Positions 6,727 through 15,731 of a stretch of DNA of 64,000 nt are shown in pieces. Below the pieces are notes generated by a model. It was given only the letters and a program-made list of their open reading frames with translations, did no database searches and was not told the DNA's origin. Source of the DNA: Lentzea albida. GTDB taxonomy: Bacteria > Actinomycetota > Actinomycetes > Mycobacteriales > Pseudonocardiaceae. The stretch lies in NCBI RefSeq assembly GCF_900111005.1, contig NZ_FOFV01000001.1:992001-1056000 (forward strand), in the 5' to 3' direction. The translations under genes and the position numbers were made by a program. Numbering within the stretch: the stretch's first letter is position 1; each line of letters starts with the position of its first letter.

Positions 6727-6951
6727 GTGGAGGTCAGGATCGGCGTCGCGGACAGCGGGCGCGAACTCGTCGTGACCAGTGAGCTCAACCCGTCCGAGGT
6801 CGAGTCCCTGGTGGCGGACGCGGTGTCCGGCAAGTCCAGCGTGCTGACGCTGGTGGACGCCAAGGGCGCGCGGTTCGTCGTGCCCGCTGGCCGCGTCGCG
6901 TACGTGGAGATCGGCCCGCAGGACTCGCGCAGGGTCGGTTTCGGCGCCTGA
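6727..6951 (+). CDS. DUF3107 protein (TB9.4-like)
   Basis: A 74-residue soluble protein matching the DUF3107 family, whose M. tuberculosis member is TB9.4/Rv3208A. The sequence begins VEVRIGVADSGRELVVTSEL and is predicted as beta strands plus one helix (NPSEVESLVADAVSG), with the conserved GARFVVPAGRVAYVEIG near the end; length equals the family norm. Function is unknown. GTG 6727 is fixed by GGAGGT just upstream. In mycobacteria it lies beside the fasR-type TetR gene; here some 10 kb of accessory DNA separates the two. A 17-bp perfect stem terminator follows 12 nt after the stop. Confidence 0.88.
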   Translation: MEVRIGVADSGRELVVTSELNPSEVESLVADAVSGKSSVLTLVDAKGARFVVPAGRVAYVEIGPQDSRRVGFGA

Positions 6952-6963
6952 GTCGTCAGAGCG

Positions 6964-7000
6964 GAGGAGGGCCCCGGTCGTCACGACCGGGGCCCTCCTC
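6964..7000 (+). terminator. Very strong intrinsic terminator, 17-bp perfect stem
   Basis: The arms 6964-6980 and 6984-7000 are perfectly complementary with a 3-nt loop (TCA), followed by CGTTTCG. It isolates the DUF3107 transcript from the giant repeat gene downstream. Confidence 0.9.
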
Positions 7001-7108
7001 GTTTCGGGAACGGCGCAGTATCGGACAAGGTCGGGCAGCCCGCATCCCCGCCGTGCGTCGAGGTCGCCTGAAGCGGTGATTGCGCTGGTAGGAGGGTTTG
7101 AGCGCACC

Positions 7109-7131
7109 TAGCGTGACGGAGTCGTCACGCT
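7109..7131 (+). promoter_or_regulatory. -10 box overlapping a 9-bp palindrome before the giant surface gene
   Basis: TAGCGT (7109-7114) resembles a -10. Overlapping it, AGCGTGACG (7110-7118) and CGTCACGCT (7123-7131) are perfect inverted repeats with a 4-nt gap. The palindrome ends 3 nt before the GAGGAG ribosome binding site (7135-7140). It could be an operator, or a 5' UTR hairpin controlling translation. No -35 was evident. Confidence 0.5.
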
Positions 7132-7144
7132 GTTGAGGAGTGCT

Positions 7145-10100
7145 ATGCGCGCCGCCCTGCTCGCCCTGTTGCTCGTGGTCTCGGCAACGACCTTCTCGCT
7201 GCCCGCGCAGGCGTACCAGTCGCACGCGGCCGGGTCGTGGTCCACGTCCTCGGCGCTGCCCGCGACCAACGCCTCCGCGCGCTCGACGCTGTCGTCCGGC
7301 ACGCAGGTCACGGCCTCGGTGTCGGGAGCGAACGTGCGGCTGACCACGCTGAACTCCCCTCCCGGCGACCGGGGGGCGGTGCCGGGCAACTTCCGGCCGC
7401 AGATCCCGGCGAACACGGCGCTGATCGGCCTGACGGCGGCGGCCGCGGGGTGTGCGGCGTTCGTCGACTGCTTCAACCGGGGCACGCTCACGTTCTCGTT
7501 CAACCGGCCGGTGCGCGACCCGGTGCTGCACATCGCGGGCAGCGGCGCGACCGTCGGCAACACTGGCAGCACGCACGTCGCCCACACGCTGACCACGCCG
7601 GGAGTCACGCTCGACGGGCCCCTCGCGGGCGCGACCAACATGACGATCGGGCAGAACGGCACCCGCATCGAGGCGCCGAACCGCAACCTCAACGTGCTGT
7701 GCAACTCCAACGGCGCGAGGCTGGCGCCGGCGTCGTGCGGCAGCGTGAAGCTCAACGGCACGATCAGCTCCGTGAGCTTCCAGATCGACATGCTCACCAA
7801 CAGCAGCACGCCGACCGACGACTTCTACGTCGCGGGTGTCTCCGTGGACGAGGACTTCGGTGACGCGCCCGCGAGCTACGACGCCGGGTCCGCCGCGAGC
7901 CACACCATCGGAGATCTGGTGATGGGCTCGGGCGTGTCGGCCGACAACCCGGCGACGATCAACACCGGGTCCGTGACGCCGAGCCCGAAGGCCGTGGCGG
8001 CCGGCGCGGACAACAACACGCCCAACGGCGACGACCTCGACGACGGCGTGGCGGCGTTCCCGCGCCTCGCCAGGTCGGACGCGGGCGAGGACTACTCGGT
8101 GCGGGTGGCCTTGTCCGGCGCCTCGCAACCAGGTCGAACCTGCGCGTGGATCGACTTCAACGGCAACGACACGTTCGACAGCGGCAACGAACGCGCCTGC
8201 ACGGACTTCCCGGCCGGCGCCACCTCGGTCACGATCACGTGGAAGATCCCGGGGAGCATCAGGTGCGGCACCACCTACGCGCGCTTCCGGGCGAGCTACA
8301 ACGTCGACCAGGTGCGCAACGAGAAGGGCCTCGCGGACAGCGGCGAGGTCGAGGACTACCGACTGCCGGTCGAGTGCCTGGACATCAAGAAGTCCACGAC
8401 CAAGACCACGGCGAACCCCGGTGAGCAGGTGCCGTACACGGTCACCATCACCAACTCCGGCGCCACGGACGTCACCGGGCTCAGCGTCTCCGACGACCTC
8501 ACGCAGGTGCTGGACGACGCGACGTTCAACAACGACCAGGCCGCGACCTCCGGCTCGATCTCCTACACCGCACCGAAACTGACGTGGTCCGGCGACATCG
8601 GCAAGGGCAGGACCGTCACGCTGACGTACTCCGTCACGGTCAAGAACCCGATCACCGGTGACCACCAGCTGCGCAACGCCGTCGTCAGCAGCGCGGGCAA
8701 CTGCCTGGCCGGCTCGACCGACCCCGACTGCTCGACCACGGTGAACACACCGGGCGTGAAGATCGAGAAGTCCGTGGACCGGCAGGCCGCGAACCCCGGC
8801 GACACGGTGACGTACACGGTGAAGGTCACCAACACCGGCAAGACGCCGCTGAACGCGATGTTCGCCGATGACCTGACGAAGGTGCTCGACGACGCGACCT
8901 GGGGCTCCGCGACGGCGTCCAGCGGCACGGCGAACTTCGTGTCCCCGACGCTGACCTGGACGGGCGCGCTGGCCGTCGGCGCGTCGGCGACGGTCACCTA
9001 CACGGTCGTCGTGACCGGCAAGGGCGACAAGCAGCTCACGAACGTCGTCACCTCGGAGACGCCCGGCAACAACTGCGTGCCGAGCTGCACGACCGACACC
9101 CCGGTCTCCGGCATCACCTTCGAGAAGAAGGCCGACAAGCAGTCGGCGAACCCCGGCGAGACCGTCACGTACACGGTCACCGTCACGAACACCGGCAGGA
9201 CTCCTTGGCAGGGCGCCACTTTCACCGACGACCTGGCGCGCGTCCTCGACGACGCCGAGTGGGTGTCGGCGGCAGCGTCGTCGGGCACGGCCGAGTTCAC
9301 CGCGCCGAAGCTGACCTGGACCGGCAACCTGCCGGTCGGCGGGTCCGCGACCGTCACCTACGCGGTGAAGGTCACCAACCCCGTCCAGGGCGACTTCCAG
9401 CTGGCCAACGCGATCACGTCCACCACGCCGGGCGGCAACTGCCCGCCGGGGTCGACCGATCCGAAGTGCGGCACGACCACACCGGTCGCCGGCTTGAAGA
9501 TCGAGAAGTCCGTCGACCGGCAGTCCGCGAACCCCGGTGACACCGTCACGTACACGGTGAAGGTCACCAACACCGGCAAGACCGCGCTGAACGCCACGTT
9601 CTCCGACGACCTGTCGAAGGTGCTGGACGACGCCGACTGGATCGGCACCAGCGCGGGCACGTTCACCTCGCCGGTGCTGACGTGGAACGGTTCGCTCGCG
9701 GTCGGTGGCTCGGCCACCGTCACGTACTCGGTGAAGGTGACCGGCAAGGGCGATCACCTGCTGGACAACGTGATCACCTCGACCACGCCCGGCTCCAACT
9801 GCCCGGAGGGGTCCGCGGACGCGGACTGCCGCACCTCCACGCCCGTGTCCGGGGTGGAGATCAAGAAGGGCGTGGACCGGCAGTCCGCGAACCCCGGTGA
9901 CACCGTGAAGTACACGGTCACCGTGCGGAACACCGGCAAGACGGCGTCGACCCCGTCGTTCATCGACGACCTGACGCAGGTGCTCGACGACGCGACCTGG
10001 GGTTCGGTCACCGCTTCGAGCGGTACGGCGGACTTCGCCGCGCCGAAGCTGACCTGGACCGGCCCGCTGGCGCCCGGCGAGGCGGCGACGATCACCTACA

Positions 10101-13100
10101 CCGTGGTCGTGAACGGCAAGGGCGACAAGCAGCTGACGAACGTCGTCACCTCGGAGACGCCGGGGAACAACTGCGTGCCGAACTGCACGACGACGACCCC
10201 GGTGTCCGGCGTCGAGTTCGAGAAGGCGGTCGACCGGCAGTCGGCCAAGCCCGGCGACACCGTCAAGTACACGGTGACCGTGCGCAACACCGGCAAGACC
10301 CCGTTGCAGGGAGCCACGTTCACCGACGACCTGGCGAAGGTCCTGGACGACGCCGAGTGGGTTTCCGCTGAAGCCTCAACGGGTTCGGCGACCTTCACGG
10401 CTCCGCGGCTCACGTGGACCGGCGATCTCGCGGCCGGCGGCACGGCCACCGTCACCTACACGGTGAAGGTCGGCGACCCGGCGGACTTCAGGCTGGACAA
10501 CGTCATCACGTCGACCACGCCCGGCGCGAACTGCCCCGGCGGCGACAAGTGCTCGACCAGCACACCGATCGCCGGGCTGCGGATCGAGAAGTCCGACGAC
10601 CGCGACCAGGTCGTGCCCGGTGACACCGTGACCTACACGATCAAGGTCACCAACACCGGCCAGACCGTCCAAACAGGAGCGTCGTTCACCGACGACCTGA
10701 CGCAGGTCCTGGACGACGCGCGCTACAACGACGACGCGCAGGCCACGATCGGCGCCGTCGCGCTGGTGTGGCCGAGGCTGGAGTGGAAGGGCGACCTGCC
10801 GATCGGGGCCACCGCCACGATCACCTACACGGTGACGGTGAAGAACCCGAACCCCGGCGACAAGAGGCTCAACAACAAGATCACCTCGGACACGCCCGGC
10901 ACCAACTGCCCGCCGGGGTCCAAGGACCCGTCGTGCAGCACCGAGACGCCCGGCCGTGAGCTGACGATCGAGAAGAAGGTGGACCGGCAGCCCGCGAACC
11001 CCGGTGACCCGGTCACCTACACCGTGACGATCACCAACACCGGCCAGGTGCCGCTGACCGGCGCGAAGGTGACGGACGACCTGTCCGGCGTGCTCGACGA
11101 CGCCACGTGGGTGTCCGGGCAGGCGACTCCGGGTGCGGTGGCGCTCGTGGCACCGACGCTGACGTGGACCGGTGACCTCGCGGTCGGCGCCACGGCGACG
11201 GTGACGTACGTGGTCCGCGTCGACGACCCGATCAAGGGCGATCACGCGCTGGTCAACCGCGTCAGCACCGAGATCCCCGGCAACTGCCCGCCCGGCTCGA
11301 CGGATCCCCGTTGCGGCACCACGACCCCGTTGCCCGGCATGGAGATCGTGAAGGAGGTCGACCGGAAGTCCGCGAACCCCGGCGACACCGTCACCTACAC
11401 CGTGACCGTGCGGAACACGGGTCAGACCGAGCTGAACGCGTCGTTCCGCGACGACCTGACCCAGGTCCTCGACGACGCGACGTGGGGCGGCACGGACGCG
11501 GGCACGTTCACCTCGCCCGTGCTGACCTGGAACGGCACGCTGCCGGTCGGCGGGACCGCCACCATCAGGTACTCGGTCGTCGTGACCGGCAAGGGTGATC
11601 ACCAGCTGACGAACGTCGTCACGTCCGACACCCCCGGCAACAACTGCGTGCCGAACTGCACGACGACGACCCCGGTGTCCGGCGTGCAGATCACGAAGAC
11701 CGCCGAGCCGTCGTCGGCCAAGCCGGGCGACACCGTCACGTACACCGTGACCGTGCGGAACACCGGCAGGACCGTGCTCGACGCGTCGTTCCGCGACGAC
11801 CTGACCGGTGTGCTGGACGACGCCACGTGGATCGGCGCGAGCGCGGGCACGTTCGCCTCGCCCGTGCTGACCTGGTCCGGACAGCTGGCGGTGGACGGGA
11901 CGGCGACCGTCACGTACACGGTGAAGGTGACCGGCGCCGGCGACAAGCGGCTCAAGAACGTCGTGACGTCCGAGACGCCGGGCAACAACTGCGCCGACGG
12001 CTGCACGACGGACACGCCGGTCGCCTCGCTGAAACTCGTGAAGAGGTCCGAGCCCGCCACGGCGAAACCCGGTGACATCGTCAAGTACACGGTGACGATC
12101 TCCAACACCGGTCAGACGGTCCACAGTGGAATCTCCGTGACCGACGACCTGACCGGGGTGCTGGACGACGCGACCTGGAACGACGACCAGGTCCCCAGCG
12201 CGGGCACGCTGTCCTTCGCGGCACCGGAGCTGACGTGGACCGGTGACCTCGCGGTCGGGGCGTCGGTGACGGTCACGTACTCGGTGAAGGTCACGGGAGC
12301 GGGGGACAAGCGGCTGAAGAACGTGGTGTCGTCGGAGACCCCGGGCACCGACTGCTCGGAGGGCTGCACGACCGACACCCCGGTGGCGGGCCTCGCGATC
12401 GAGAAGGAGGTCTCGCCGGACAAGCCCGTGCCGGGTGACGTAGTGACCTACACGGTGACCGTGAAGAACACCGGCCAGACGGCCCAGAAGGCGTCGTTCC
12501 GCGACGACCTGACCGGCGTGCTGGACGACGCGACCTGGAACGACGACGCGGCGGCGACCGTGGGCGAAGTCGCCTACGCGGCTCCGGCGCTGACGTGGAC
12601 CGGTGACCTGCCGATCGGCTCGCAGGCCGTCATCACCTACTCGGTGAAGGTGACCGGCGACGGTGACCACAGGCTCACCAACGTCGTCACCTCGGACACG
12701 CCCGGCGGCAACTGCCCGCCGGGGTCGGCCGATCCGAAGTGCTCGACCTCGACCCCGTTGCCGGGCATGGAGGTCAGCAAGTCCGTCGACGTGAAGTCGG
12801 CCAAGCCCGGTGACACCGTGACGTACACCGTCGAGGTCGTGAACACCGGTCAGACCGACCTGCTCGGAGCCTCGTTCTCCGACGACCTGGGCAAGGTCCT
12901 GGACGACGCGACGTTCGGCACGTGGTCGGCTTCGGGTGGCACGGTGGCGGTCGCCGAGCCGACGCTGACGTGGACCGGCGATCTTCTGGTCGGCACCTCG
13001 GTGACCGTGACGTACACGGTCGTCGTGAAGAACCCGGTGACCGGTGACTTCAGCCTGGACAACGTCGTGACGACGAAGACACCGGGCGGCAAGTGCGTCG

Positions 13101-14650
13101 AGTGCGCGACCGTCACGCCGATCGCCGGGCTGAAGCTGGTGAAGAAGTCCGAGCCGGAGTCCGCCAAGCCGGGTGACACCGTCCGGTACACCGTGACGGT
13201 CACCAACACCGGCAAGACGGTCCACAGTGGAATCTCGGTCACCGACGACCTGTCCGGTGTGCTGGACGACGCCACCTGGATCGGCACGGACGCGGGCACG
13301 TTCACCTCGCCCGTGCTGACGTGGACGGGTGACCTCGCGGTCGGCGCGTCGGTGACGATCACGTACTCGGTGAAGGTGACCGGCGACGGCGACAAGCGGC
13401 TCAAGAACGCCGTGACGTCGGACGTGCCGGAGACCGACTGCTCGGACGGCTGCACCACGGACACCCCCGTCGCCGGCTTCCAGCTCGTGAAGAAGGCGGA
13501 CCGGACCGAGGCGAAGCCGGGGGAGAAGGTCACGTACACGATCGTCGTGAAGAACACCGGCGCCACCGTGTTGCAGGACGCCACGTTCGTCGACGACATG
13601 ACCGAGGTGCTCGACGACGCCACCTACAACGGCGACGCGGCCTCGACCTCGGGCTTCGCGACCTACGCCGAGCCGAAGCTGACGTGGAAGGGCACGCTCG
13701 GGCAGGGCGCCGAGGCGACGGTCCGGTACTCCGTGACCGTCACGAGCAAGGGCGACCTGCGGCTGAAGAACGTCGTCACGTCCGACACCCCCGGCTCGAA
13801 CTGCCGCGACGGCTGCTCGGTCGAGGTCCTCGTGCCGCGGCTGGAGATCGTGAAGAAGGTGGACGTGGCGTCGGCCAAGCCCGGCGACCTCGTCACCTAC
13901 ACCGTGACGGTCACGAACACGGGCCAGACCGCGTTGCCGGCGGCGAGCTTCGTCGACGACCTGAGCGGCGTGCTCGACGACGCGTCCTTCGTGGACACGA
14001 GCGCCGGCGCGTTCACCGCGCCGAAGCTCACGTGGACCGGCGAACTCGCCGTCGGGGCCACGAGGTCGGTCACGTACCGGGTGCGGGTGAACGACCCGCC
14101 GACCGGTGACTTCCGCCTCCGCAACGTGGTCACGTCCGGCACGCCGTCGAACTGCCCCGGCGAGGAGTGCGGCACCGAGACCCCGGTGTCGGGCCTGGAG
14201 GTCGTCAAGAAGGCGGACCGGACCGAGGCGAAACCGGGCGACCGGATCACCTACACCGTGACCGTCCGGAACACGGGCCGGACGCCGGTCGAGGCCTCGT
14301 TCAGCGACTCGCTGGCCGACGTGCTGAAGCACGCGACCTGGGACGGCACCGACGCGGGCACCTTCGCGTCACCGGTGCTGACCTGGTCCGGCGAGCTGGC
14401 GGTCGGGGCCACGGCCACGATCACGTACCGGGTGACCGCGACCGGGCCCGGCGAGCTGCGCAACGTCGTGACCTCGGACGTGCCGGGCTCGAACTGCAAG
14501 CCGGGCGGGTCCGACCCGAGGTGCTCGGCGACGGTGAAGGTGCGGCAGGACCCGCCGATCGCGTGGACCGGTTTCCCGGCACTGCCCCTGGCGGCGTTCG
14601 GCCTGGTCCTGGTGCTCGCGGGCGTGCTGCTGAGGAGGAGGAACGCGTAG
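7145..14650 (+). CDS. Giant secreted surface protein: CshA-like, GEVED, 17 DUF11 repeats, sortase-like tail
   Basis: A 2501-residue secreted protein. ATG 7145 follows GAGGAG. A signal peptide ends near LPAQA (residue 23). A CshA-fibril-like domain (about 75-240, NRGTLTFSFNRPV) and a GEVED domain (about 240-412, ending DSGEVEDYRLP) precede 17 DUF11-type beta-sandwich repeats of about 115-125 residues (413-2466). Each repeat carries a version of NPGDTVTYTVTVTNTG, then DDLTxVLDDATW, LTWTG and a Cys-pair linker. The tail is PPIAWTG, a hydrophobic helix and RRRNA, which looks like a cell-wall sorting signal with a non-consensus motif. DUF11 arrays usually form extended adhesin stalks, so an aerial-surface or attachment role is inferred. 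Very long antisense frames here are GC shadow. Confidence 0.92.
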   Translation: MRAALLALLLVVSATTFSLPAQAYQSHAAGSWSTSSALPATNASARSTLSSGTQVTASVSGANVRLTTLNSPPGDRGAVPGNFRPQIPANTALIGLTAAAAGCAAFVDCFNRGTLTFSFNRPVRDPVLHIAGSGATVGNTGSTHVAHTLTTPGVTLDGPLAGATNMTIGQNGTRIEAPNRNLNVLCNSNGARLAPASCGSVKLNGTISSVSFQIDMLTNSSTPTDDFYVAGVSVDEDFGDAPASYDAGSAASHTIGDLVMGSGVSADNPATINTGSVTPSPKAVAAGADNNTPNGDDLDDGVAAFPRLARSDAGEDYSVRVALSGASQPGRTCAWIDFNGNDTFDSGNERACTDFPAGATSVTITWKIPGSIRCGTTYARFRASYNVDQVRNEKGLADSGEVEDYRLPVECLDIKKSTTKTTANPGEQVPYTVTITNSGATDVTGLSVSDDLTQVLDDATFNNDQAATSGSISYTAPKLTWSGDIGKGRTVTLTYSVTVKNPITGDHQLRNAVVSSAGNCLAGSTDPDCSTTVNTPGVKIEKSVDRQAANPGDTVTYTVKVTNTGKTPLNAMFADDLTKVLDDATWGSATASSGTANFVSPTLTWTGALAVGASATVTYTVVVTGKGDKQLTNVVTSETPGNNCVPSCTTDTPVSGITFEKKADKQSANPGETVTYTVTVTNTGRTPWQGATFTDDLARVLDDAEWVSAAASSGTAEFTAPKLTWTGNLPVGGSATVTYAVKVTNPVQGDFQLANAITSTTPGGNCPPGSTDPKCGTTTPVAGLKIEKSVDRQSANPGDTVTYTVKVTNTGKTALNATFSDDLSKVLDDADWIGTSAGTFTSPVLTWNGSLAVGGSATVTYSVKVTGKGDHLLDNVITSTTPGSNCPEGSADADCRTSTPVSGVEIKKGVDRQSANPGDTVKYTVTVRNTGKTASTPSFIDDLTQVLDDATWGSVTASSGTADFAAPKLTWTGPLAPGEAATITYTVVVNGKGDKQLTNVVTSETPGNNCVPNCTTTTPVSGVEFEKAVDRQSAKPGDTVKYTVTVRNTGKTPLQGATFTDDLAKVLDDAEWVSAEASTGSATFTAPRLTWTGDLAAGGTATVTYTVKVGDPADFRLDNVITSTTPGANCPGGDKCSTSTPIAGLRIEKSDDRDQVVPGDTVTYTIKVTNTGQTVQTGASFTDDLTQVLDDARYNDDAQATIGAVALVWPRLEWKGDLPIGATATITYTVTVKNPNPGDKRLNNKITSDTPGTNCPPGSKDPSCSTETPGRELTIEKKVDRQPANPGDPVTYTVTITNTGQVPLTGAKVTDDLSGVLDDATWVSGQATPGAVALVAPTLTWTGDLAVGATATVTYVVRVDDPIKGDHALVNRVSTEIPGNCPPGSTDPRCGTTTPLPGMEIVKEVDRKSANPGDTVTYTVTVRNTGQTELNASFRDDLTQVLDDATWGGTDAGTFTSPVLTWNGTLPVGGTATIRYSVVVTGKGDHQLTNVVTSDTPGNNCVPNCTTTTPVSGVQITKTAEPSSAKPGDTVTYTVTVRNTGRTVLDASFRDDLTGVLDDATWIGASAGTFASPVLTWSGQLAVDGTATVTYTVKVTGAGDKRLKNVVTSETPGNNCADGCTTDTPVASLKLVKRSEPATAKPGDIVKYTVTISNTGQTVHSGISVTDDLTGVLDDATWNDDQVPSAGTLSFAAPELTWTGDLAVGASVTVTYSVKVTGAGDKRLKNVVSSETPGTDCSEGCTTDTPVAGLAIEKEVSPDKPVPGDVVTYTVTVKNTGQTAQKASFRDDLTGVLDDATWNDDAAATVGEVAYAAPALTWTGDLPIGSQAVITYSVKVTGDGDHRLTNVVTSDTPGGNCPPGSADPKCSTSTPLPGMEVSKSVDVKSAKPGDTVTYTVEVVNTGQTDLLGASFSDDLGKVLDDATFGTWSASGGTVAVAEPTLTWTGDLLVGTSVTVTYTVVVKNPVTGDFSLDNVVTTKTPGGKCVECATVTPIAGLKLVKKSEPESAKPGDTVRYTVTVTNTGKTVHSGISVTDDLSGVLDDATWIGTDAGTFTSPVLTWTGDLAVGASVTITYSVKVTGDGDKRLKNAVTSDVPETDCSDGCTTDTPVAGFQLVKKADRTEAKPGEKVTYTIVVKNTGATVLQDATFVDDMTEVLDDATYNGDAASTSGFATYAEPKLTWKGTLGQGAEATVRYSVTVTSKGDLRLKNVVTSDTPGSNCRDGCSVEVLVPRLEIVKKVDVASAKPGDLVTYTVTVTNTGQTALPAASFVDDLSGVLDDASFVDTSAGAFTAPKLTWTGELAVGATRSVTYRVRVNDPPTGDFRLRNVVTSGTPSNCPGEECGTETPVSGLEVVKKADRTEAKPGDRITYTVTVRNTGRTPVEASFSDSLADVLKHATWDGTDAGTFASPVLTWSGELAVGATATITYRVTATGPGELRNVVTSDVPGSNCKPGGSDPRCSATVKVRQDPPIAWTGFPALPLAAFGLVLVLAGVLLRRRNA
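8381..14540 (+). repeat. Array of 17 coding repeats (about 345-385 bp each)
   Basis: Repeats start near 8381, 8756, 9113, 9494, 9856, 10210, 10576, 10960, 11338, 11683, 12029, 12392, 12767, 13130, 13478, 13840 and 14196. Most are closed by a linker with two Cys residues, either nine apart (NCPPGSTDPKC) or three apart (NCVPNC, DCSEGC). Some segments are identical at DNA level between non-adjacent repeats, for example 47 nt at 10166-10212 and 11639-11685, indicating recent duplication or gene conversion. Confidence 0.9.
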
Positions 14651-14684: not shown

Positions 14685-14999
14685 CTAGTGCTCGACCGGC
14701 TCCTCGATCCGGTAGGGCGGGGTGGACGTGCCACCGACCCGGTAGCGGCCCCACGGGTCCTGGTCGGTGAGCGTCCCCTCCGCCTCGCCGGTGGGGGTGC
14801 GCAGCACCGCCTTGCGGGCGCCCCCTTCGACGCGGCTCGTGACGTCGTCGCTGGCCTTCACGCGCCCGTACCAGTGGTAGCGGCCGTCGATCGGCTGGAA
14901 GTAGCCCCGGAGGTCGACCTCGACCGGGACCGCGTCCTCGCCGAACACCAGGACCGCGGAGCCGCTGTAACCCTCTTCGTCGTGCTCGTGCTCGCTCAT
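14685..14999 (-). CDS. DUF4873 domain protein
   Basis: A 104-residue protein that matches, from memory, DUF4873: an acidic N-terminus (MSEHEHDEEGYSG), then beta-rich VEVDLRGYFQPIDGRYHWYGR and a C-terminal DPWGRYRVGG. The domain is often fused to or encoded near flavin monooxygenases and other oxygenases in actinobacteria; its function is unknown. ATG 14999 overlaps the TetR stop by one base (TGATG), so the two genes are translationally coupled. A diiron oxygenase gene lies across the divergent promoter, which fits an oxygenase-linked role. Confidence 0.65.
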   Translation of the reverse strand: MSEHEHDEEGYSGSAVLVFGEDAVPVEVDLRGYFQPIDGRYHWYGRVKASDDVTSRVEGGARKAVLRTPTGEAEGTLTDQDPWGRYRVGGTSTPPYRIEEPVEH

Positions 15000-15682
15000 C
15001 AATCAACCAATCGGAGAGGCGTGAGGGGTTGTCCGGGGTCCGCCTGGATGCCCGCCGACCGCAGCAGCCCGTCGATGGCGTGCCAGATCAGCGTGGCGAG
15101 GTAGTCGCTGAGGTTCGCGCGGGACATGGTCTGGCGGTCGAGCCACCAGTCGCCCGCGTTCTGCACCATGCCGACGAGCGCGTGCGCCCACGGCTCGGCG
15201 CCGCCGGAGTCCATGTCGAACGAGCGCAGGTAGTCGCCGAGGATCCGGGCCAGGGTCGTCGCGATGAGGTTCTTGTCCTCCGCGACCAGGTCCTTCTCCA
15301 CCGGCCGGTCGACGAACGAGCCCTTGACCACGAACTTGTAGAGGTTCGGGTTCTCCTCGATCACCGACAGGTAGGCGTCGACGATGCCCGCGATGCGGCC
15401 GCGGATCGGCCCGTCGGCGACCAGGGCCGGGCCCATGCGGTCCATCAGCAGTTCGGTGGCCTTCTGGCCCACTGCCAGGTACAGGTCGGACTTGTCGGTG
15501 AAGTGCCGGTACAGCACCGGCTTGCTGACGCCGGCCTCCGCGGCCACGTCGTCCATGCCGACGTCCGGGCCCTTCCTCGCCACGGCGGCGATCGTGGCCT
15601 CCACGAACTCCGCCCTGCGCTGCTCGCGGTGACCCTTCCACCGCTCCCGTCGCGCGTCCGGCCCCTTGACAGTACGTGCCAT
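14999..15682 (-). CDS. TetR-family regulator divergent from the AurF-type oxygenase
   Basis: A 227-residue TetR protein. The helix-turn-helix is DVGMDDVAAEAGVSKPVLYRHFTDKSDLY (residues about 38-66); the C-terminal ligand domain has no recognisable subfamily motif. ATG 15682 (MARTVKGPDARR) is chosen; the 14-codon extension to 15724 would run through the operator region. It is coupled to the DUF4873 gene and divergent from the AurF-like gene across 61 bp that hold two operator-like repeats, so it probably represses both sides and itself. It is distinct from the FasR-type TetR nearby, which has a different ligand domain. Confidence 0.9.
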   Translation of the reverse strand: MARTVKGPDARRERWKGHREQRRAEFVEATIAAVARKGPDVGMDDVAAEAGVSKPVLYRHFTDKSDLYLAVGQKATELLMDRMGPALVADGPIRGRIAGIVDAYLSVIEENPNLYKFVVKGSFVDRPVEKDLVAEDKNLIATTLARILGDYLRSFDMDSGGAEPWAHALVGMVQNAGDWWLDRQTMSRANLSDYLATLIWHAIDGLLRSAGIQADPGQPLTPLRLVD

Positions 15683-15699
15683 GTGACGCACGCTACCAG

Positions 15700-15731
15700 A
15701 AGTAACCGTTACCTCAAGTAACACTTACCGG
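15700..15731. promoter_or_regulatory. Two tandem TetR operator-like sites
   Basis: A 16-bp direct repeat reads AAGTAACCGTTACCTC at 15700-15715 and AAGTAACACTTACCGG at 15716-15731. Each copy contains an inverted repeat, GTAACCGTTAC (15702-15712) and GTAACACTTAC (15718-15728). The position between the TetR and AurF-like start codons makes them strong candidate binding sites for this TetR. Confidence 0.75.

Follow-up and report, generated by a model that had tools for sequence, protein, structure and literature searches.

CshA of Streptococcus gordonii combines an N-terminal non-repeat head, a GEVED domain, 17 repeats and a sortase-type C-terminus; its repeats are CshA repeats and its NR2 head binds fibronectin, as described in PMC10952558. 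The Gram-negative Acinetobacter silvestris provides a second system with B9T28_05395, which comprises a CshA_NR2-like head, a GEVED-like domain, a long stalk of DUF11-type isopeptide domains and an OmpA-like C-terminal anchor (PMC12617251). One DUF11 domain of this protein was crystallised (9IFR), revealing an isopeptide bond between Lys715 and Asn806 with Asp748 and a disulfide between Cys818 and Cys821 near the end of the repeat. According to the same source, DUF7927 is listed among the predicted isopeptide families, and disulfides occur in 41.3% of such isopeptide domains in Actinomycetota. Two actinomycete proteins, L090 (genome G705) and L136 (G817), both read in part, show GEVED followed by DUF7927 repeats. 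The Lentzea albida protein described here is of this known kind, with a variant head. It resembles B9T28_05395 in its head, GEVED and long DUF11-type stalk with C-terminal anchor as well as in the cysteine pair of its repeats, and differs in that its head is unnamed, its repeats are all of the DUF7927 type and its tail is of the sortase type. L090 and L136 hold a true CshA_NR2 head where the Lentzea protein has the unnamed one. The repeat number of 17, shared with S. gordonii CshA, is probably a coincidence. Searches of an open-access library, which leaves out subscription papers, listed no paper recognised as a description of the stalk protein or its head.

The analysed window comprised 64,000 nucleotides of a L. 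albida contig. The stalk gene (7145–14650, +) starts with ATG, a few bases downstream of the sequence gaggag, and forms an open frame of 2501 residues plus stop without internal stop codons. The original prediction of a secreted protein of this length agreed with this single intact frame and with its start, where a signal-peptide-like sequence, MRAALLALLLVVSATTFSLPAQA|Y, was recognised by eye (residues 1–23; 7145–7213, +). The calculated mass of the mature protein was about 255 kDa with a pI of 4.6. The whole protein contains 42 cysteines, 34 in the repeats and eight before them. Full-length orthologues with 17 repeats each were found in two other Lentzea assemblies, with 88–89% identity to the window protein. 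Across the three genomes, dN/dS ranged from 0.22 to 0.24, and the gene is under purifying selection. A more distant homologue, from a different genus of this family (G085), is similar in head and GEVED, with 57% N-terminal identity, and likewise continues with DUF7927 repeats and an IASTG tail. It differs in length, with 4122 residues from a start codon of our choice and 29 repeats. The closest correspondence to the Lentzea repeats is that of its first and last three; the middle of its array does not correspond. None of the tested neighbour genes of the window was present in the 3.6–3.9 kb flanking the G085 homologue.

The tandem repeats extend from residue 412 to about residue 2465 (8378–14539, +). 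Pfam assigned 17 stretches to DUF7927 with 1121 bits (cut-off 31) and, in line with the 17 DUF11 repeats originally proposed, 17 stretches to DUF11 with 595 bits (cut-off 24.6). In NCBIfam, 17 stretches were likewise detected by TIGR04226, which models isopeptide-forming fimbrial domains. DUF7927/DUF11 repeats in this number make up the stalk of repeated known stalk domains that is typical of fibrillar adhesins. Elsewhere in the genome, DUF11 was limited to two stretches in one frame of 1139 residues, which has no sorting signal at its end. Identity between repeats averaged 57% (range 42–77%), and the highly identical tandem repeats of Periscope proteins were not seen.

In an alignment of 80 repeats, comprising 17 from each of the three Lentzea proteins and 29 from the G085 relative, one lysine, one aspartate, one asparagine and two cysteines were invariant in all 80. 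Exactly two cysteines were present in 79 repeats and three in one segment. Spacings were 33–34 residues from Lys to Asp, 85–97 from Lys to Asn and 3–15 between the cysteines. The repeat profile matched 9IFR as the only PDB sequence at a threshold of E 0.01 (E 5.7e-5), with Lys, Asp, Asn and the second Cys in register and a Lys–Asp spacing of 33 in 9IFR. AlphaFold2 modelled repeats 9–10 as two mostly-beta domains with a mean pLDDT of 95.9, and K5, D38 and N92 as well as K120, D153 and N207 were located on predicted strands. The best 50 Foldseek matches of this model were integrins, transglutaminases and similar chains with TM-scores of 0.32–0.52, which we take to be Ig-like folds; 9IFR was absent among these 50. 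The repeats resemble CnaA-like isopeptide domains in both the family profile, which was matched over its cut-off, and the Lys-Asp-Asn triad at the bond positions.

A frameshift and an assembly collapse, both of which had been considered as possible flaws in the original prediction, were not found. The frame is intact and its orthologues are full-length in two assemblies, the longest exact DNA repeat within the array has 47 bases, and the repeats themselves are as diverged as described above. In both Lentzea orthologues, 17 of 17 repeats were closest to the repeat at the same position, and this position-matched set of 17 makes a collapse unlikely. Long open frames were observed on the opposite strand at 6956–9757 and 10376–14332 (−), with 933 and 1318 residues. 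The possibility that the array is an artefact, either collapsed or hiding a true gene on that strand, draws on these frames, which are of a kind that can occur at 71% G+C. It is opposed by over-cut-off domain matches in the stalk frame, by purifying selection, by the agreement of three genomes in the number and order of repeats and by the shortness of the longest exact repeat; the probability left to it is negligible. The opposite-strand frames were taken as shadows of high G+C coding, and collapse, frameshift and chance are excluded for practical purposes.

At the C-terminus, a probable sorting signal was identified by eye (14558–14647, +), consisting of IAWTG (residues 2472–2476), a hydrophobic segment and the final residues RRRNA. 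The tail anchor originally proposed was correct in so far as a hydrophobic segment is followed by RRR, and understated, as the tail looks like a sortase signal. IAWTG was also present in both Lentzea orthologues and IASTG in G085, and thus IAxTG, a hydrophobic segment and a basic end were found in four of four close homologues. The genome contained six sortase matches. One passed the class E model (250 bits, cut-off 160), two passed class F and three scored best in class F below its cut-off. Class E sortases act on LAXTG signals according to PMC5148588. IAWTG has Ile at the first place and otherwise fits; the hydrophobic segment and RRR, read by eye, and the class E sortase gene in the genome are as expected for class E substrates. 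Owing to the Ile, the tail is graded as only a probable sortase sorting signal, resembling those of class E.

Alternatively, the protein could be held in the membrane by its hydrophobic segment or be released, without any sortase and with IAWTG as an accident. The first-place Ile points in this direction, as does the C-terminus, of which the last 150 residues matched no NCBIfam family at E 0.1. However, IAxTG is kept in four close homologues, one of them only 57% identical N-terminally. Moreover, six other Lentzea proteins with two DUF7927 domains end in LAATG (twice), LAVTG, LARTG, LPVTG and LAAGG, each followed by a hydrophobic stretch and a basic end, so that LAxTG or LPxTG occupies the same place in five of the six and LAAGG in the sixth. 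A sortase-free fate is therefore considered improbable. The six two-DUF7927 proteins (L099–L104, frames of 1630–1890 residues) belong to genomes G011, G003, G019, G001, G014 and G002. None of these six genomes contained the 17-repeat gene, which may be chance with three and six genomes out of 24.

Upstream of the stalk, two regions were distinguished. GEVED, proposed in the original prediction, was confirmed at residues 333–407 (8141–8365, +) by PF20009 with 55.4 bits (cut-off 24.4), a feature shared with CshA-type adhesins. The head domain (residues 24–240; 7214–7864, +) matched no model of Pfam, NCBIfam or PHROGs at the limits applied, and related heads exist elsewhere. GEVED was the sole Pfam match for residues 1–412 at E values up to 10. 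The head alone gave one sub-threshold Pfam match (E 0.055), five heads gave none in NCBIfam and the window head gave none in PHROGs, the library through which phages were covered. A known adhesive domain, as used to recognise fibrillar adhesins, was thus not found in these three libraries. The same applies to more than 90% of the predicted cases with a known stalk in Firmicutes and Actinobacteria, as given in PMC9210967. Structure prediction of the head yielded a mean pLDDT of 45.4. Profiles of the N-terminus, run against the sequences of the PDB, retrieved nothing or only one chain at chance level (E 0.13).

A CshA-like domain had been predicted for this N-terminus, and this assignment found no support in the sequence. 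The CshA_NR2 model, PF18651, had no match in this genome. A search over 296 genomes gave no match anywhere, controls included; the same model matched 10 of 150 genomes in another family. Profile comparisons of the head with CshA_NR2 gave probabilities of 2.7% with one NR2 domain and of 0.09% and 0.10% with eight. Two separate sets of heads were linked at 99.8%. With Pfam, genome and profile comparisons all negative, a CshA_NR2 identity appears unsupported by sequence, and the NR2 head of CshA-type adhesins was, by this measure, not found. Of the 32 families matched by the whole stalk protein, the best 25 did not include CshA repeats (PF19076). The head might still be a CshA_NR2 domain of the same fold whose sequence has diverged past recognition. 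Its position before GEVED is that of the true CshA_NR2 in L090 and L136, and PMC10952558 characterises NR2 folds as very mutable and as frequently escaping sequence-based detection. In addition, a PDB search at E 0.1 with our own profile, built from eight NR2 domains, retrieved no chain, CshA included, which indicates limited power. On the other side are the missing PF18651 match and the values of 0.1–2.7% compared with 99.8% between the two head sets. Furthermore, 4 of 16 aligned heads had no GEVED match behind them, and NR2 is reportedly always partnered by GEVED (PMC10952558). Descent from CshA_NR2 is accordingly regarded as doubtful. One fold shared by head and CshA_NR2 is possible, since NR2 folds vary beyond sequence recognition and the NR2 profile missed CshA in the PDB.

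The head recurred in a small number of genomes. The N-terminal 409 residues had matches in 4 of 390 genomes of the family and the head profile in 10 of 394 genomes of the class, the own genome included in both counts. In a phylum survey with a longer N-terminal profile, matches were obtained in 5 of 396 genomes, with the head part covered only in the own genome and in G747. The head was also present in an Acidimicrobiales bin and in one of 72,556 plasmid records, that of Arthrobacter sp. StoSoilB13. The starts of the relatives described here appeared signal-peptide-like by eye, so that none of these matched the cytoplasmic homologue named in the original prediction as a possible objection. In an alignment of 16 heads, 15 were located near the start of the frame; the one in G1226 was internal, behind other domains. 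GEVED followed the head in 12 of 16 and was not detected in G1188, G1064, G1270 and G747. A sortase-type motif with hydrophobic segment and basic end was recognised by eye in 10 of the 16 proteins, with IAWTG three times, LPDTG twice and IASTG, LPLTG, LPSTG, LASTG and LPESG once each. Three had no such end (G1206, G1035 and G1232), and the remaining three were readable only in part.

The stalk behind the head varied. DUF7927 was the partner in the three Lentzea proteins and G085, DUF7507 in G1024 and G1014, CshA repeats in G1226 and G1188, SdrD_B in G1064 and G1270 and DUF6923 in G1232. G1024 was scanned over 2500 of 6440 residues, G085 over the first 700 and G1226 over the first 1500. The Arthrobacter protein combined the head with DUF7507, one DUF7927 and SpaA, and the Acidimicrobiales protein with SpaA_3 and DUF7507 up to the contig end. 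G1206 and G1035 showed no stalk domain after GEVED, and G747 gave only an Ig-like match below cut-off. Conversely, GEVED-DUF7927 stalks carried a true CshA_NR2 head in L090 (170 bits) and L136 (188 bits) and followed a DUF6923 domain in G615. These varied pairings, together with NR2 or DUF6923 on GEVED-DUF7927, indicate that head and stalk have been exchanged between proteins. The 217-residue head may be the founder of an undescribed family of adhesin tips, shuffled in actinomycetes onto at least four stalk types (DUF7927, DUF7507, CshA repeats and SdrD_B) and onto bare GEVED, and swapping with CshA_NR2 on one GEVED-DUF7927 chassis; we give this proposal an even chance. If true, the head would be a second interchangeable class of tip of such fibres, with a ligand of its own. 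Among the single proteins, the G1024 frame of 6440 residues (L126, 508–19827, −) combined this head and GEVED with numerous DUF7507 domains and closed with an LPDTG-type end. The Arthrobacter protein (L137, 11677–14406, +) has 910 residues with head, GEVED, DUF7507, DUF7927 and SpaA, and is encoded on a 1.0-Mb plasmid.

The surface fibre suggested in the original prediction remains the best reading, based on domain content, the predicted repeat fold and the comparison with relatives. More specifically, the protein is likely a fibrillar adhesin that is anchored to the wall of a filamentous soil actinomycete and has a stalk cross-linked in two ways, with a probability of roughly 0.7. The domain order, the invariant residues, the predicted repeat fold, purifying selection and the class E sortase gene were shown here and are the basis for this reading. 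Points against it are the absence of 9IFR among the best 50 Foldseek matches, the Ile in IAWTG, the lack of an NCBIfam match at the C-terminus, the low confidence of the head model and the absence of the gene from most testable genomes of the genus. The protein would cross the membrane through Sec. On the outer side, each of the 17 domains would fold as a CnaA-like beta-sandwich and would close a Lys-Asn isopeptide bond, assisted by Asp, and one disulfide near its end. The stalk would then be a chain of covalently clipped links. Ig-like domains measure about 4–4.5 nm. With the protein anchored to the wall, the 17 domains would form a rod of perhaps 70–80 nm (17 × ~4–4.5 nm), carrying the head and GEVED at its tip. 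There, head and GEVED might attach to a ligand presented by another cell, by a polymer or by a particle.

A structural protein of the wall or sheath was weighed against this adhesin. In that case, the stalk would strengthen or space hyphae, spores or aggregates, and the head would contact the surface of its own cell. A constant repeat number in three species fits such a fixed spacing role, and substrates of class E sortases serve morphogenesis in Actinoplanes missouriensis, as stated in PMC13251363. Yet other genera combine the head with unrelated stalks, a pattern more in keeping with an exchangeable tip than with a fixed structural part, and 19 of the 22 testable genomes in the genus lack the gene. 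A purely structural role is consequently judged unlikely, and the adhesin reading is preferred.

The locus was compared in related genomes, as the original prediction had suggested. Upstream of the stalk gene lies a DUF3107 gene (6727–6951, +; PF11305, 99.2 bits). Downstream follow a convergent DUF4873 gene (14685–14999, −; PF16170, 122.8 bits) and a TetR-family gene (14999–15724, −; TetR_N 46.2 bits, TetR_C_32 65.7 bits). The best solved relatives of the latter were 6o6p (68.5 bits) and 6o6n (65.6 bits), presumably both FasR. The predicted position between DUF3107 and fasR homologues was right for both outer genes and had overlooked the intervening DUF4873 gene. DUF3107 was present in 24 of 24 genomes of the genus survey. 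It shared a contig with TetR in 22, which were considered testable; two contigs ended too early. DUF4873 was found in all 22 loci reaching TetR. The stalk gene was located between DUF3107 and TetR in 3 of the 22 and missing there in 19. The block of neighbours thus exists without the gene in most genomes, as implied by the claim that the gene breaks a conserved block, but no operon is broken, since the gene occupies a gap between convergent genes. Most of the testable genomes in the genus lack it, so that it is dispensable there.

In the 19 empty sites, DUF3107 and TetR were 358–448 bases apart, except for 1770 bases in G007, and the DUF3107 stop was 49–133 bases away from the point where the aligned DUF4873 gene ends. 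Five loci, including G015, showed nucleotide similarity to the extra segment, and only over its initial 79 bases. This stretch includes a GC-rich inverted repeat after DUF3107 (6963–7001, +), detected by reading and present at empty sites too. The empty-site layout and the confined similarity indicate that the stalk gene lies in the convergent-gene gap with a leader of its own. The leader contains a palindrome, AGCGTGAC-N6-GTCACGCT (7110–7131, +), directly 5' of the sequence resembling a ribosome-binding site; its 22 bases were identical in the three genomes. A simple scan of 6900–7160 revealed no sigma-70-type promoter and no terminator. A regulon for the palindrome was considered and rejected: no second exact copy exists in this genome, and 16 sites with one or two mismatches were counted versus eight for a reversed-pattern control.

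The contig of G015 ends 167 bases past the DUF3107 stop before DUF4873 is reached, unlike the 19 empty sites. G015 may be a broken-off carrier; a DUF7927 search of its genome found none. In G018, which has the stalk gene, a transposase-like frame of 402 residues (L059, 14251–15456, +; OrfB_IS605 106.6 bits, Cas12f1-like_TNB 88.6 bits) lies between DUF4873 and TetR. G007, without the stalk gene, holds an insert of similar length between DUF4873 and TetR.

Relative to four flanking genes, the stalk gene showed a synonymous divergence higher by factors of 1.40, 1.41 and 1.44 in the three carrier pairs. In five of five neighbouring genes, the carrier G022 was closer to the gene-less G006 and G017 than to the other carriers. 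The carriers did not form one clade in the flanking-gene tree (AU p 1.3e-5), which was calculated from four linked genes with 2484 columns and has modest support at several branches. A recent transfer between carriers is not the simplest account of divergence proportional to the flanks, of G022 flanks that follow gene-less relatives and of carriers that are not one clade on the tree. The simplest account is an old gene cleanly lost several times, and it leaves the absence of scars from these losses unaccounted for.

If the adhesin reading is right, L. albida would possess a fibre in which both covalent locks are kept in each of 17 links, with a tip drawn from a recurring domain set that is unnamed in the searched libraries. 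The interest lies mainly in this set of heads and in the full retention of both locks across the repeats. Close relatives that either carry or lack the gene at a single clean site would then allow a natural comparison. The head would be a candidate tip module for the way in which filamentous soil bacteria hold on to other cells, polymers or particles.
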